Made by a program: the position numbers and the translations under genes | Notes under the pieces: generated by a model | What the model was told of the DNA's origin: nothing | The model's input: the letters and a program-made list of their open reading frames with translations, nothing else | Databases searched by the model: none | NCBI GenBank assembly: GCA_905181825.1 | Contig: CAJIZJ010000022.1 | Span: forward strand, 74,794 to 122,713 | DNA: 47,920 nt | From: an uncultured Flavobacteriaceae bacterium | Lineage (GTDB): Bacteria > Bacteroidota > Bacteroidia > Flavobacteriales > Flavobacteriaceae | Reading direction: 5' to 3' | Shown here: positions 38,397-44,962 of the stretch, piece after piece | Layout of the letters: every line of letters starts with the position of its first letter | How positions within the stretch are numbered: the stretch's first letter is position 1

Positions 38397-39494
38397 CTAT
38401 TTGTAAAAGATAAGCTTATCACTCGTTAGAGACCATTGAACTTCACTGAATTTTTTCATAAAGGACACCCCAAGCAAGGACATATTTGCAGTTGGCAACG
38501 TTTCCACGTACGCCACAATATTTTTAATAGTATATGAACCAATTTTAAGCTCATGAATTTTAATTAATTTATTATCAGATGGCACTCCACTAACACCAAC
38601 TCCCTGCACTACAATGTTCAAATCATCATATTTTAGTCCGTTCTTTTTAAGGTAATCAAATAACCTGAAGCCAATTGAAAAAACTTCTGCACCTGTATCA
38701 AAAACAAATCGAACAGGCTCAATAGTTGTTTCAGTAGAAAAACCCAAGTAGATAATCATCGAATTTCCATCTCTTTCTAAATCAACAGCAATAAAATCAT
38801 CCTGACCTACAATATCATTTTCAATAAAGTAGTTTTTAGTGTTATTTTTAATTTCTGTTTCAACTCCATCAAAAACTTCACTCTCAATGACTATATTGTC
38901 TTCATAAACATACTTTTTTGTGCCATTTTCTAATTGTCCGTCAGAACGATGCTTCCCATAACTATAAACTACACAATCAACTGTATTCAGAATTCTCTCT
39001 ATAGTCTTTTTATTTTCGACTTGTGAAACTGATGACATACCATTGCCAAAATCTATTTCTTTTACTCCAGTTAGCAACTGATTATCAACAAAAAAACCTT
39101 CAGATTTTTGAATCTGACCCTTATTGATTATTGTCAATATTCCCTGACCGTTTTTTGAGTTGTTTTTCCATTGACCATCATATACTTGACCATTACTGTC
39201 AGTCATTACTCCAGAACCTTCCATCTCACCTCGCACCCAACCACCATCATACACTTGACCATCATCAAAAGTCATTACTCCAGAACCTTCCATCTCGCCT
39301 CGCAACCAATCACCGTCATATACTTGACCATTATCGAAAGTCATTATTCCATGACCACTAGGATTACCCTCATAATCTAGACACCCGATATAGGTGGCGT
39401 TATTATAGCTTTTGTTTTCAGCACATTTCGATTTCTGGCCATGCGATGCAGATAAAAAACTAAAAAAGATGAATAAAAAAGTGATGTATTTCAT
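38397..39494 (-). CDS. Secreted MORN-repeat protein with retropepsin-like aspartic protease domain
   Basis: A 365-residue protein with a signal peptide (MKYITFLFIFFSFLSASHGQ). Residues about 47-135 hold MORN repeats of 23 residues, such as GQVYDGDWLRGEMEGSG and its near copies. After a linker, residues about 235-365 form a single-lobe aspartic protease: VRFVFDTGAEVFSIG with catalytic D266 in DTGA, a GVGVSGVPS stretch that could be the flap, and a closing MSLLGVSFMKKF, which matches the conserved end of clan AA proteases. A single DTG lobe implies a homodimer. Substrate and role are unknown. The MORN repeats are nearly identical at the DNA level, so the copy number may vary between strains. 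Confidence 0.85.
   Translation of the reverse strand: MKYITFLFIFFSFLSASHGQKSKCAENKSYNNATYIGCLDYEGNPSGHGIMTFDNGQVYDGDWLRGEMEGSGVMTFDDGQVYDGGWVRGEMEGSGVMTDSNGQVYDGQWKNNSKNGQGILTIINKGQIQKSEGFFVDNQLLTGVKEIDFGNGMSSVSQVENKKTIERILNTVDCVVYSYGKHRSDGQLENGTKKYVYEDNIVIESEVFDGVETEIKNNTKNYFIENDIVGQDDFIAVDLERDGNSMIIYLGFSTETTIEPVRFVFDTGAEVFSIGFRLFDYLKKNGLKYDDLNIVVQGVGVSGVPSDNKLIKIHELKIGSYTIKNIVAYVETLPTANMSLLGVSFMKKFSEVQWSLTSDKLIFYK
39181..39370. repeat. Tandem 69-bp repeats encoding the MORN units
   Basis: Units begin at 39181, 39250 and 39319, an exact 69-bp period that equals 23 codons. The first two units share long identical tracts. Recent duplication is suggested by identity at silent positions. Confidence 0.85.
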
Positions 39495-41734: not shown

Positions 41735-42099
41735 AATAAGTTATTTGTTTTAGTTTAAACAAAAATATTAAATGGCATCTTAATTTTTAAGCCCATATAC
41801 AGCCCATAGCTAAAAAAAAATATGTAATTAAATGTAGTTTATTGATTTCCAGAGACTTAATGGCGATACTGATCATATGTAACTGATAAACAAACTAATA
41901 ACTTTATTTACTATATTAATATTGAACTCAAGAACATAACATTAAGGACCAATTTCTTTAAATTGTTATATAATTTATTTATATTGAATTCATAATAAAT
42001 AAAATCATACCAAATGATTCATGTACTCTACAAAAAAGAAGTGAAAATAAGCATGAATAACTAAAAGTTAGATATGGTCATAATTATAAAAAAAAACGG
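41735..42099. other. 365-bp very AT-rich divergent intergenic region
   Basis: No credible coding frame was seen. Near the left end, CAAAAATA at 41760-41767 reads TATTTTTG on the minus strand, a fitting -7 box for the lipoprotein gene. On the plus strand only an imperfect TAACTTTA at 41899-41906 was found, which would leave a leader of about 190 bases before the nitroreductase GTG. Confidence 0.55.
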
Positions 42100-43212
42100 G
42101 TGAAAAATTTGAGACGTGAATTTATAAAAAAAACATTGCTTGGAGTATCCTTTATCGCTGTGACTAACCCATTCAAACAGTTGTGGGCGTTAACTAAAGT
42201 CATACCTTGTGTTACTCCTAGTTGGAACGAATTAATAGAAATTGCACGCTGGGCTCCCACCATTCACAACTTACAGCCCCACCAAGTGAAGATAATTTCA
42301 GAAATCGAAGCCGAACTTTTTTACAACCCTGAGCGACTTCTTCCAGTAGAAGATCCTGATTCTATATTTACAACGATAGCAATGGGCGTATTTATTGAAC
42401 ACCTTTCAATTGCTGCAGCCCCATTTGGTTATAGAGTAACAATAGAGCATTTTCATGATTCAGTTTCAATTAAATCATCTAAACCAACGCTTTTTGCAAC
42501 ACTGAAACTCGTTTCAACCATAGAAAAAGAGGAACTAAACAAAAATTTAATTTTTGATAGAAGAACGTCTCGTCTTCATTATGATGGCAAAAAGCTAAAA
42601 CAAAATACCATTAAACGCATAAAAAAAGAAGCTGAAAAATTTGATCACGATTTTTTTCACTCATCGGAAAAGGAGGTCGTCGACTTTGTCGTCAACTTAA
42701 ATGAAGAAACCTTATTTGAGGACTTAGCTTCAAAACCAACTAGAGATGAACTTGACCGCTTGTTTCGATACAGTAAAAAAGAAGCCAAAACTCATAAAGA
42801 TGGCCTCTGGACAAAGTGTATGGGTTTTTCTGGCCGTTTGACAAGATCTATTTTCAAAAACCATAATAGATGGACCAAAGGCTTTCGTAAGAAATTATTA
42901 AAAAAGTATTACATGTCAACATTTAAGGGAACCAGTACGATCTGTTGGTTTGGAGGCGCATTTAACCAAAAAGAGGACTGGGTACAATGTGGAAGGATGT
43001 TTGCTAGAACTTGGCTTATAATGAGCGATGAAAATGCTTACATTCATCCATTTGGATCTTTGATTACAAACAAAAATGCCTACAGTAAAATTAAAGATCA
43101 ATTAACTCAGCCAGAAGCCCCTAAAAAGACATGGATGATTTTTCGTGCAGGATACAGTAAAACTCCGACAAGAAGCTTTAGGTTAAGTACAAATGAAATA
43201 TTAATTAATTAA
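42100..43212 (+). CDS. Tat-exported Acg-like nitroreductase-family protein
   Basis: A 370-residue protein from a GTG start. The N-terminus has a twin-arginine signal: R5-R6-E-F-I-K-K followed by a hydrophobic stretch to about residue 31. The nitroreductase fold then starts with IARWAPTIHNLQPHQ at 48-62, the A-P-S-x-x-N-x-Q-P FMN-binding motif with Thr for Ser. YNPERLLPVEDPD at 75-87 and RRTSR at 154-158 resemble the Acg/Rv2032 group, whose two fused half-domains bind FMN without a partner. Tat export fits a protein folded with its flavin. It is followed after 3 bases by the PaaK-like gene. Substrate unknown. In some Acg proteins the active-site cavity is closed, so sequestering flavin is an alternative role. 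Confidence 0.8.
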   Translation: MKNLRREFIKKTLLGVSFIAVTNPFKQLWALTKVIPCVTPSWNELIEIARWAPTIHNLQPHQVKIISEIEAELFYNPERLLPVEDPDSIFTTIAMGVFIEHLSIAAAPFGYRVTIEHFHDSVSIKSSKPTLFATLKLVSTIEKEELNKNLIFDRRTSRLHYDGKKLKQNTIKRIKKEAEKFDHDFFHSSEKEVVDFVVNLNEETLFEDLASKPTRDELDRLFRYSKKEAKTHKDGLWTKCMGFSGRLTRSIFKNHNRWTKGFRKKLLKKYYMSTFKGTSTICWFGGAFNQKEDWVQCGRMFARTWLIMSDENAYIHPFGSLITNKNAYSKIKDQLTQPEAPKKTWMIFRAGYSKTPTRSFRLSTNEILIN

Positions 43213-43215
43213 ATT

Positions 43216-44730
43216 ATGAGACACCTAATAATCTTATTCTACGCATGGTTAATTGAGCTTATCCGAAAACCATTAATGCTATCAAATTTTACCATAAAGC
43301 TTATACATATTTCAGGGATTAACAAAATTAGAACATTTAATAGCAAAGCCAGAGCCTATTCAGAATTTATTAAGGCCAAAAGAAGAGTGCCGGCTTACAA
43401 GGCATTTTTAAAGACTCATAATTTTTCTAAACCTTCGTTTAGTGGGCTGGTACCCAATATTTATGAGATTCCAGAAATTGATAAAAAAAATTATATCAAT
43501 AAATTTTCTATTGATGCTAGATGTGTAGGAGGGAAAATTCCAACTAAAAATATAATTATTGATGAATCTTCGGGGAGTAGTGGAACAGCAACCAACTGGG
43601 TTCGAGGCTTAAAAGAAAGAAAACGAAATGCCAAAATGATTGAGTTTGGAATGAGATCCCTAGTGGGCAAAGAGCCGTTATTTGTCATTAATGCTTTTGC
43701 ATTAGGCCCTTGGGCTACGGGTGTCAATGTTACTATGAGTTGTGTCTCCTTTTCAAAATTAAAATCTCTGGGTCCTGAAAAAGAAAAAATTGAAAATACG
43801 CTTAAACAATTTGGAAAAAATCATAATTATGTAATAATGGGCTATCCTCCCTTTCTAAAATATTTAGTTGATAACTCAGAAATAGAATGGGAGAAATTTA
43901 ACATTGCTTTCATTTTTGGAGGAGAATCAATGTCTGAAGGAATGAGAGATTATCTATTTCAAAAAGGAATTAAAAAAGCCTATAGCTCTTTGGGAGCATC
44001 TGATTTAGAATTAAATATTTCTGCAGAAAATGATTTTACAATAAGCCTTAGAAGATTATTACGTTCAAATCAATCATTACAATCAAAACTCTTAAAGCAC
44101 ACCGGTGCACTTCCAATGATTTTTCAATATAATCCAACAGATTTTTTAATTGAGTCGTCTGAGGCTGGGGAATTAATTGTTACGATCGGTCGCCCCGATT
44201 ACATATCTCCTAAAGTGAGGTATAACATACATGATAGAGGCCATACCTTATCAATTAAAGACCTCTACTCTATTTTAAAAAGTTTAAATATCAGCCTTGA
44301 TAAATTAGCAAGACCTCAAACAGATTTACCATTATTATTTCACTACGGAAGAGCAGATATGACGGTATCGTTTTTTGGAGCAAACATAAGCCCTACAGAT
44401 ATTAATGAAGTTATTTATTCGCTACCTGAATTATCTAAAATTGTTAACTCTTACAACCTTACTATAGACGAAGACAACGAAGGGAATAAAAAATTAATCA
44501 TTTCAATAGAAGTTCAGAAAGGAGAAACAATCGAATTACTAGATCTTGAAAAAACTCAAGCAGCCTTTTTTGATAATTTATCAAAAATAAATCAAGATTT
44601 CAGAGAAGCCAGAAAAATGCTCCCCAATAATAGACTGACTATAATTAGTTTCGAAGATTTTGGCTCAGGTTCATTCAAAGAAAATGACATTAGAATAAAA
44701 GCAAAATATATTGTAGGATCAAGAAATTAA
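43216..44730 (+). CDS. PaaK-like adenylate-forming (acyl-CoA ligase superfamily) enzyme
   Basis: A 504-residue member of the ANL superfamily of the phenylacetate-CoA-ligase type. The P-loop is ESSGSSGTAT at 117-126, FIFGGESMSEGMRDYL at 233-247 and AYSSLGASDLE at 255-265 correspond to motifs A4/A5, and FHYGRADMTVSFFGANISPTDINE (about 375-398) to A7/A8. The N-terminal 35 residues are hydrophobic and may attach it to the membrane. It would activate a carboxylate with ATP; whether CoA is the acceptor is not known, and coenzyme F390 synthetase shows that the family also adenylates other acids. It lies 3 bases after the Acg-like gene, so the two form an operon. The acid substrate cannot be deduced. 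Confidence 0.8.
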   Translation: MRHLIILFYAWLIELIRKPLMLSNFTIKLIHISGINKIRTFNSKARAYSEFIKAKRRVPAYKAFLKTHNFSKPSFSGLVPNIYEIPEIDKKNYINKFSIDARCVGGKIPTKNIIIDESSGSSGTATNWVRGLKERKRNAKMIEFGMRSLVGKEPLFVINAFALGPWATGVNVTMSCVSFSKLKSLGPEKEKIENTLKQFGKNHNYVIMGYPPFLKYLVDNSEIEWEKFNIAFIFGGESMSEGMRDYLFQKGIKKAYSSLGASDLELNISAENDFTISLRRLLRSNQSLQSKLLKHTGALPMIFQYNPTDFLIESSEAGELIVTIGRPDYISPKVRYNIHDRGHTLSIKDLYSILKSLNISLDKLARPQTDLPLLFHYGRADMTVSFFGANISPTDINEVIYSLPELSKIVNSYNLTIDEDNEGNKKLIISIEVQKGETIELLDLEKTQAAFFDNLSKINQDFREARKMLPNNRLTIISFEDFGSGSFKENDIRIKAKYIVGSRN

Positions 44731-44792
44731 ATGTTTCTCAAAAATGATTTAAATAGATAAAATAACGAAACTATCTTAGATCAAATTATAAG

Positions 44793-44811
44793 CAATTAGT
44801 ATTACTAATTG
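44793..44811 (+). terminator. Palindromic hairpin, likely terminator of the nitroreductase/PaaK-like operon
   Basis: A 19-base near-perfect palindrome (9-bp arms CAATTAGTA and TACTAATTG around a single T) begins 63 bases after the stop and is followed by GTTTC-free T-rich TTTCATTT. The stem is AT-rich, so termination is plausible but not strong. Confidence 0.45.
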
Positions 44812-44838
44812 TTTCATTTAAGGAAACTCTCGTCATCT

Positions 44839-44854
44839 ACCTAAGCTCTTAGGT
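44839..44854 (+). terminator. Second hairpin in the same gap
   Basis: Arms ACCTAAG and CTTAGGT around CT, followed by TATTTATC. It may back up the hairpin at 44793, or be an independent binding site. Confidence 0.35.
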
Positions 44855-44962
44855 TATTTATCTAAATAATCCCTTCAATTACGAAATAATAATAGAAATT
44901 TAATAACTAATGCATATTATTACACTTAATTAAACCCATACAACTAACTAAATAAAACAAAA

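Follow-up and report, generated by a model that had tools for sequence, protein, structure and literature searches.

A PaaK-type ligase and an Acg-like flavin oxidase encoded as a conserved gene pair: a possible activate-and-desaturate lipid module

What reaction could link a flavin oxidase to an acid-activating ligase whose genes lie side by side in bacteria of many phyla? The question is raised by two genes in a 47,920-nucleotide (nt) stretch of DNA, hereafter the window, from an uncultured Flavobacteriaceae bacterium (assembly GCA_905181825.1, contig CAJIZJ010000022.1): one encodes an Acg-like flavin-dependent oxidase (FDO), and the other a ligase of predicted PaaK type. The pair probably works as a short pathway: the ligase activates a fatty or fatty-amino acid with ATP, and the flavoprotein then oxidises it. 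A general activate-then-oxidise scheme of this kind is likely. A more specific reading, to which we give a probability of about 0.4, is that the two enzymes make up an activate-and-desaturate lipid module, in which the ligase takes the place of a ThiF enzyme and an N-acyl amino acid passes through an oxazolone to an unsaturated product.

Coupling of the two genes across phyla

Among 84,980 species genomes, a pattern scan detects 362 ligase relatives, the best 80 of which were used, and the comparison covers 81 two-gene loci (L004, on a Gemmatirosa plasmid, and L006–L085; L001–L003 repeat the window, L006 and L007 and are left out). By record title, the carriers are Bacteroidota, Actinomycetota, a Gemmatimonadota, a Planctomycetota and an alphaproteobacterial member, as well as one metagenome-assembled genome (MAG) each of Omnitrophota, Acidobacteria, Krumholzibacteriota and Eremiobacterota and three Patescibacteria MAGs, a few of the labels being ambiguous. 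The FDO gene lies 5' of the ligase gene on the same strand in 79 of the 81 loci, and the contigs of the other two (L029 and L030) start at the ligase. With start codons set by rule, the two genes overlap in 50 of these 79 loci (41 by exactly 4 nt) and are 0–20 nt apart in 24; longer gaps are present in four (L036, L039, L041 with an extra open reading frame (ORF) in between, and L083 with a broken FDO frame), and the spacing in L034 is not measurable. The tree distances of ligase and FDO correlate with r = 0.93 (42 of the 79 pairs; 0/999 permutations as high), which is expected if both genes travel together and would also arise from plain vertical descent. In a separate draw of 297 genomes of one actinobacterial order, centre included, all 23 ligase matches have an FDO gene close by on the same strand or fused to them: six belong to two-gene loci (L103–L108), 16 to a four-gene cluster, and one (L142) forms a single ORF with the FDO. 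The four-gene order, first seen in Nonomuraea, is ligase, PF13826 (af470-like) protein, GNAT and FDO; it agrees in 17/17 loci (the 16 of the draw and Nonomuraea), with a GNAT of unproven substrate in all 17 and with GNAT and FDO in one ORF in L128, L133 and L135. The adjacency is thus found in many phyla and not in close relatives only, which bears out the conserved unit suspected in the original prediction, a reading of the window made without database searches, and the genomic coupling of ligase and FDO is firm.

Some loci call for caution. The FDO gene is split over two frames in L037, L042 and L077, by sequencing error or decay. The pairs of L016, L040, L045 and L066 lie in MAG contigs labelled Polynucleobacter or Patescibacteria, for which binning errors are possible; L016 is suspect because its ligase has the same start as those of L017 and L019, both Flavobacteriales loci.

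Closer to the window, the ligase is found in its own genome only among 199 genomes of the family (0/198 others) and in 3 of 18 members of the genus, own included (2/17 others). A set of 392 Bacteroidota genomes contains three ligase matches, namely that of the own genome, that of the pair L088, and a remote ligase of 235 bits (L089/L090, in genome G578) in which several motif residues differ and around which no FDO gene is found in 19 kb. No ligase relatives were found in viral contigs and phage records. A third conserved gene of the two-gene form was rejected, since each cluster of neighbouring genes occurs in at most nine loci, the largest being mostly from Hymenobacter, and no Pfam family recurs in more than 3 of the 87 neighbouring ORFs defined by a simple longest-ORF rule around 32 loci. 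A compact cassette of such patchy spread, which is missing where the same flanking genes occur at a related locus, could be an anti-phage or conflict system; neither protein matches PADLOC and no family recurs among the neighbours scanned, and a defence role was rejected on these grounds as hardly credible.

Predicted folds, conserved residues and export

Pfam gives the ligase only a weak AMP-binding_C_2 match below the cut-off (E 0.0021), and its score with the PaaK equivalog TIGR02155 (12 bits) does not reach the cut-off of 646.3. A profile built from 44 relatives of the ligase matches PaaK structures with E 5.5e-11, and the structural model, built from 42 sequences with a mean predicted local distance difference test (pLDDT) score of 86.6, has the acyl-CoA ligase BT_0428 (4r1m, E 3.0e-20) as its best PDB match, followed by PaaK1/2, NatL2, AjiA1 and ClxA at identities of 12–16%. 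According to this model, the ligase has a PaaK-type fold, and it has in common with these PaaK-type ligases the predicted fold, a P-loop-like stretch and a GR.D motif; compared with BT_0428, about 20 residues are added at its N-terminus (profile position 47 pairs with chain residue 26). Matches to vaccinia L1 (E 0.009) and interleukin-18 (E 0.6) were taken as chance.

A residue survey of 102 ligases comprises 84 of two-gene type (the window, L004, L006–L085, L088 and L143), 17 of four-gene type and the fused one. The P-loop-like residues listed in Table 1 are invariant in all 102, as are E237, D263 and D340, and the stretch fits the P-loop that had been proposed from the window sequence; S119 is replaced by Ala in the fused ligase, and N337 differs in four proteins. 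G378, R379, K495 and Y498 are also invariant in all three groups, and D381 of the GR.D motif is present in 81/84, 17/17 and 1/1 of them, respectively. K495 is a candidate for the equivalent of the catalytic lysine near the C-terminus, the loss of which had been named as an argument against adenylation; its equivalence is inferred because the profile alignment with one PaaK-like protein stops short of it, and residues 492–496 have pLDDT values below 50. The N-terminus, described earlier as hydrophobic, is predicted to form a helix (residues 2–20), but its hydrophobicity is moderate, at the 88th percentile of sampled 18-mers of these proteins, and a strong membrane anchor was rejected for this reason.

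The window FDO scores 24.4 bits with the Pfam family Nitroreductase (PF00881), just above the curated cut-off of 23.5, and 141.6 bits with the NCBIfam Acg/Rv3131 family (NF047509), below the cut-off of 199; relatives that stand alone reach 275–333 bits with the latter (L091, L102, L158 and L159) or 190 bits (L156). The AlphaFold model has a mean pLDDT of 91.3, with residues 1–33 below 50, and its best PDB match is 2ymv, Acg of Mycobacterium smegmatis (5246), with E 3.3e-14 and template modelling scores of 0.67/0.76, nine orders of magnitude ahead of the second-best chain (E 2.8e-5). The model thus gives the FDO an Acg fold in addition to its membership of the nitroreductase superfamily by cut-off. 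Acg (2ymv) and Rv3131, which are flavin mononucleotide (FMN) oxidoreductases, share this predicted fold; unlike them, the window FDO falls below the family cut-off, belongs to a separate clade and is coupled to a ligase. A Pseudonocardia contig (G599, C97, 25.5–49.6 kb) matches the oxidase part of the Rv1355c model four times within 24 kb, and the two matches examined further, L091 and L102, pass the Acg-family cut-off.

A twin-arginine motif, LRREFIKK, precedes a hydrophobic stretch at the N-terminus of the window FDO, and TatC is present in 18/18 members of the genus, own included; export by the twin-arginine translocation (Tat) system, as first proposed, is therefore predicted for this protein. 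Apart from the window, 37 loci are of Bacteroidota type (L006–L028, L031–L039, L041–L043, L047 and L048, among which L016 is labelled Polynucleobacter and L032 uncultured bacterium), and in 35 of them a stretch of RRxF[IL] type comes before the flavin domain; in the other two, L021 and L032, the contig start truncates the gene. In the Gemmatimonadota loci L004 and L072, such a stretch is followed by a lipobox-like Cys (L072 was read by eye, the pattern having missed it). In contrast, 39 loci from other phyla have no motif of this type within the 75 residues that lead up to the flavin domain; the nearest start codon lies 0–27 residues before the domain in 38 of them, none was found in L044, and a pattern match in L067 was read as out-of-gene sequence. 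Export as a general element of the mechanism was therefore rejected, the Tat-type signal being lineage-specific, with Bacteroidota and Gemmatimonadota as the only groups in which it was seen. An Acg-family protein on a Bradyrhizobium plasmid (L158, 4863–5945) is annotated with a Tat pathway signal and has no ligase annotated within 10.8 kb, and therefore Tat signals occur in the Acg family without a ligase.

ThiF-based pathways and the proposed reaction

TyzC and TrzS of mycobacteria are flavin oxidases that belong to the nitroreductase superfamily and desaturate N-acyl amino acids, either as such or in cyclised form, and in the tyz and trz pathways a ThiF homologue or domain carries out ATP-dependent cyclisation to acyl-oxazolones (PMC10404671, PMC12856293). 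For TrzS, cyclisation precedes desaturation, and the R540A variant has lost desaturation (PMC12856293). R223 of the window FDO is possibly equivalent to this Arg540, as judged from an alignment of TrzS homologues that does not include the published TrzS itself: counted from the first Met, the aligned Arg is residue 542 in L144 and 538 in L147 and lies further along in two other homologues with uncertain starts, and the motif pattern missed 3 of 7. In TyzACB/TrzAS, and in OxzAB of Pseudoalteromonas rubra, the adenylating enzyme and the oxidase are adjacent or fused as they are here (PMC10404671, PMC12856293), and the four-gene form resembles these clusters further in carrying a GNAT-family gene. 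They use ThiF, whereas the window-type pair uses a PaaK-type ligase, and the two-gene form differs from them in the absence of an acyltransferase gene, in its FDO clade and, in some lineages, in its Tat-type signal. Dehydrotyrosine producers also have N-acyl amino acid synthase genes with ThiF and nitroreductase genes next to them, so that N-acyl-dehydrotyrosine clusters share with the present pair an adenylating enzyme and a nitroreductase-family protein, theirs being ThiF accompanied by a synthase gene (PMC12479983). The original prediction knew of no described pathway joining the two families. This holds for the PaaK-type ligase in the literature searched, but ThiF is joined to the same oxidase superfamily in oxazolone and N-acyl-dehydrotyrosine clusters. 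Neither a ligase with an Acg/nitroreductase partner nor an adenylate-forming enzyme in oxazolone biosynthesis is mentioned in that literature, to which subscription papers mostly do not belong, and a word search of the available text of PMC10404671 and PMC12856293 finds no such ligase–oxidase pair.

The family names alone would suggest a detoxification pair, made of a nitroreductase for nitro or quinone compounds and a CoA ligase for breakdown of the product. This is very improbable: no family recurs among the 87 ORFs neighbouring the pair, and the characterised TyzC and TrzS are desaturases that use O2 in lipid biosynthesis (PMC10404671, PMC12856293).

Plasmid clusters of Rhizobiaceae (Ensifer, Rhizobium and Shinella; L160, L161 and L163) contain, in this order, a hypothetical gene, ThiF, a second hypothetical gene, GNAT and FDO. 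The Ensifer ThiF is recognised by Pfam with E 1e-35, the Ensifer GNAT and FDO match those of the four-gene clusters (best E 1.4e-35 and 3.8e-23, respectively), and the profile of the two-gene FDOs recognises the FDO of each of the three clusters (E 6e-35 to 2e-28). GNAT and FDO of this cluster are thus homologous to those of the four-gene form, whereas ThiF is present instead of the ligase and a hydrophobic protein of unknown family instead of the af470-like protein. The adenylating enzyme thus appears to be exchangeable, a PaaK-type ligase serving in one cluster type and ThiF in the other, and the presence of ThiF in the ligase's place beside related GNAT and FDO genes is the strongest reason for assigning the role of ThiF to the ligase.

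From the linkage and the fusion of the genes, the ligase motifs, the predicted folds and the position of ThiF, all of them read from sequence, we infer a substrate, a cyclisation and a desaturation, together with their order and place. The ligase would adenylate the carboxyl group of a lipid acid with ATP, most likely an N-acyl amino acid, and the activated acid would close onto its own amide to give an oxazolone (azlactone), a cyclisation that the ligase itself would probably carry out. The Acg-like FMN oxidase would then take two hydrogens, with O2 as the acceptor, to give an unsaturated product. The ligase would thereby do the work of ThiF, the cyclase to which it is unrelated and which serves in the tyz, trz and oxz pathways, and the oxazolone, which is derived by analogy with these pathways, is a testable proposal. 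In Bacteroidota and Gemmatimonadota, the ATP-dependent step may take place in the cytosol and the oxidation at the outer face of the inner membrane, because the oxidase has a Tat-type signal there; in other lineages, both steps would be cytosolic.

Several observations weigh against an N-acyl amino acid substrate and against a TrzS-like oxidase in the two-gene form. The pair is not adjoined by an acyltransferase gene, and no homologue of the four-gene GNAT is found in the examined flanks of any two-gene locus. A homologue of that GNAT lies about 57 kb 5' of the pair on the same contig, outside the window (G000:C22:59512-60264); a GNAT acting from elsewhere in the genome was rejected, since the homologue does not track the pair across the genus (1/3 members with the pair, 3/15 without). 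The GNAT family is also broad, the Ensifer GNAT matching non-cluster GNATs at up to 122 bits (tblastn) and the four-gene GNATs listed at a much similar 84–120 bits (phmmer). A GNAT tree was built for this reason from 30 sequences, cut by a profile built from the four-gene and ThiF-cluster GNATs (L138 was dropped as short). In favour of the exchange of ThiF and ligase, one branch (100/99) splits 16 four-gene and three ThiF-cluster GNATs from the others, which are a small sample of 11 rows and include the non-cluster GNAT homologue of the own genome. The first gene of the Rhizobiaceae cluster has no match to anything near TrzS genes, and its homology to TrzS neighbours was rejected. As to the oxidase, the window FDO scores higher with the model of Rv3131 (FDO-B) than with that of Rv1355c, and the fused FDO of L142 has no equivalent of R223. 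An FDO tree of 71 oxidase-domain rows, among them 37 two-gene and 16 of the 17 four-gene FDOs (L126, L091 and broken or short rows were dropped), places the 37 two-gene FDOs in one group (100/99) and 11 TrzS (FDO-A) domains in another (100/100), and groups the four-gene, fused and Ensifer FDOs with a support of just 86/87.

Because no GNAT stands beside the two-gene form and none tracks it, a simple fatty or aryl acid must be taken seriously as a rival substrate: the ligase would make an acyl-AMP or acyl-CoA, the FMN oxidase would place a double bond at the alpha,beta position, and the product would be an unsaturated lipid and not an oxazolone. The nearest solved ligases are PaaK-type acid ligases, and the Rv3131 model is the one with which the two-gene FDO scores best. 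No product is known for FDO-B enzymes, and Grigg et al. suggest that they may desaturate other lipid species. This reading is nevertheless doubtful, since clusters whose GNAT and FDO genes are related use either ThiF or the ligase, an exchange that speaks for a substrate class common to the ligase and the ThiF pathways. We know of no ThiF-type enzyme that makes fatty acyl-CoA.

Less likely again is a division of labour in which the four-gene cluster makes an N-acyl-amino-acid product and the two-gene form has switched to a different acid or to a phenol, such as a natural product of amino-acid or peptide type or a cofactor. F390 synthetase, a relative of PaaK, acts on the cofactor F420, and the ligases match the F390 synthetase model weakly; in addition, ligases and FDOs of the two forms fall into separate clades, and no third gene is common to both. 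However, the ligase motifs are identical in the two forms, and the F390 matches are weaker than the PaaK matches in both searches.

If the activate-and-desaturate module on N-acyl amino acids is correct, it may represent a class of natural-product pathways that is widespread and undescribed. An ANL (PaaK-type) ligase would there take over from ThiF the making of oxazolones from N-acyl amino acids; the self-contained two-gene cassette would carry this class into many phyla and, in Bacteroidota and Gemmatimonadota, split it across the inner membrane, with ATP-dependent cyclisation inside and desaturation by FMN and O2 outside. Taken as a whole, this wider claim is unlikely. In PMC10404671 and PMC12856293, oxazolone lipids belong to ThiF clusters, and the same chemistry would then have been assembled with two unrelated activating enzymes and would extend to Bacteroidota, Gemmatimonadota, Actinomycetota and several candidate phyla. 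A branch of Acg-like flavoproteins without a function described in the literature searched would also gain a partner and a testable reaction, and the size of two genes makes heterologous expression easy.

The locus and its local history

The positions and the spacing of 3 nt first given for the two genes are confirmed (Table 1), and the gaps around the pair are AT-rich as described, the GC content of the window being 35%. The flanking genes had been called unrelated envelope genes, which is roughly right: an OMP beta-barrel gene lies on the 5' side, and GDSL hydrolase and SASA esterase genes on the 3' side, while a short ORF, also on the 5' side, has no Pfam match.

Table 1. Coordinates of the gene pair, its candidate residues and the adjoining gaps in the window
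Feature	Position	Strand	Basis or remark
FDO gene (Acg-like flavin-dependent oxidase)	42100..43212	+	ORF, GTG start, 370 aa
Twin arginine R5 R6 in LRREFIKK	42112..42117	+	sequence, motif survey, TatC in own genome
R223	42766..42768	+	aligns with Arg of ELRW-type motif in TrzS homologues
Ligase gene (predicted PaaK-fold adenylate-forming ligase)	43216..44730	+	ORF, ATG start, 504 aa
P-loop-like DESSGSSG (residues 116–123)	43561..43584	+	D116, E117, S118, G120, G123 invariant
K495, candidate catalytic C-terminal lysine	44698..44700	+	K in 84/84 two-gene-type, 17/17 four-gene, 1/1 fused
Upstream AT-rich gap	41735..42099	.	365 nt, 22% GC
Downstream AT-rich gap	44731..44962	.	232 nt, 22% GC

In a member of the genus without the pair (G206, locus L174), SpoU (880–1329) and GDSL (1501–2202) genes are separated by 171 bp. 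The distance between SpoU and GDSL is 4.4 kb in the window, where the pair, the OMP gene and the short ORF, all three absent from L174, lie in between, and the pair of L006 is likewise located 3' of SpoU. The comparison of these SpoU–GDSL intervals suggests that the pair was gained or lost at one site. Between the window and L006, sequence identity is 93% for the ligase, 78% for the FDO, 83% for SpoU and 66% for the upstream methyltransferase. Elsewhere in the window, a gene on the minus strand (38397–39494) encodes a protein in which a retropepsin-like aspartyl protease domain comes after MORN repeats.

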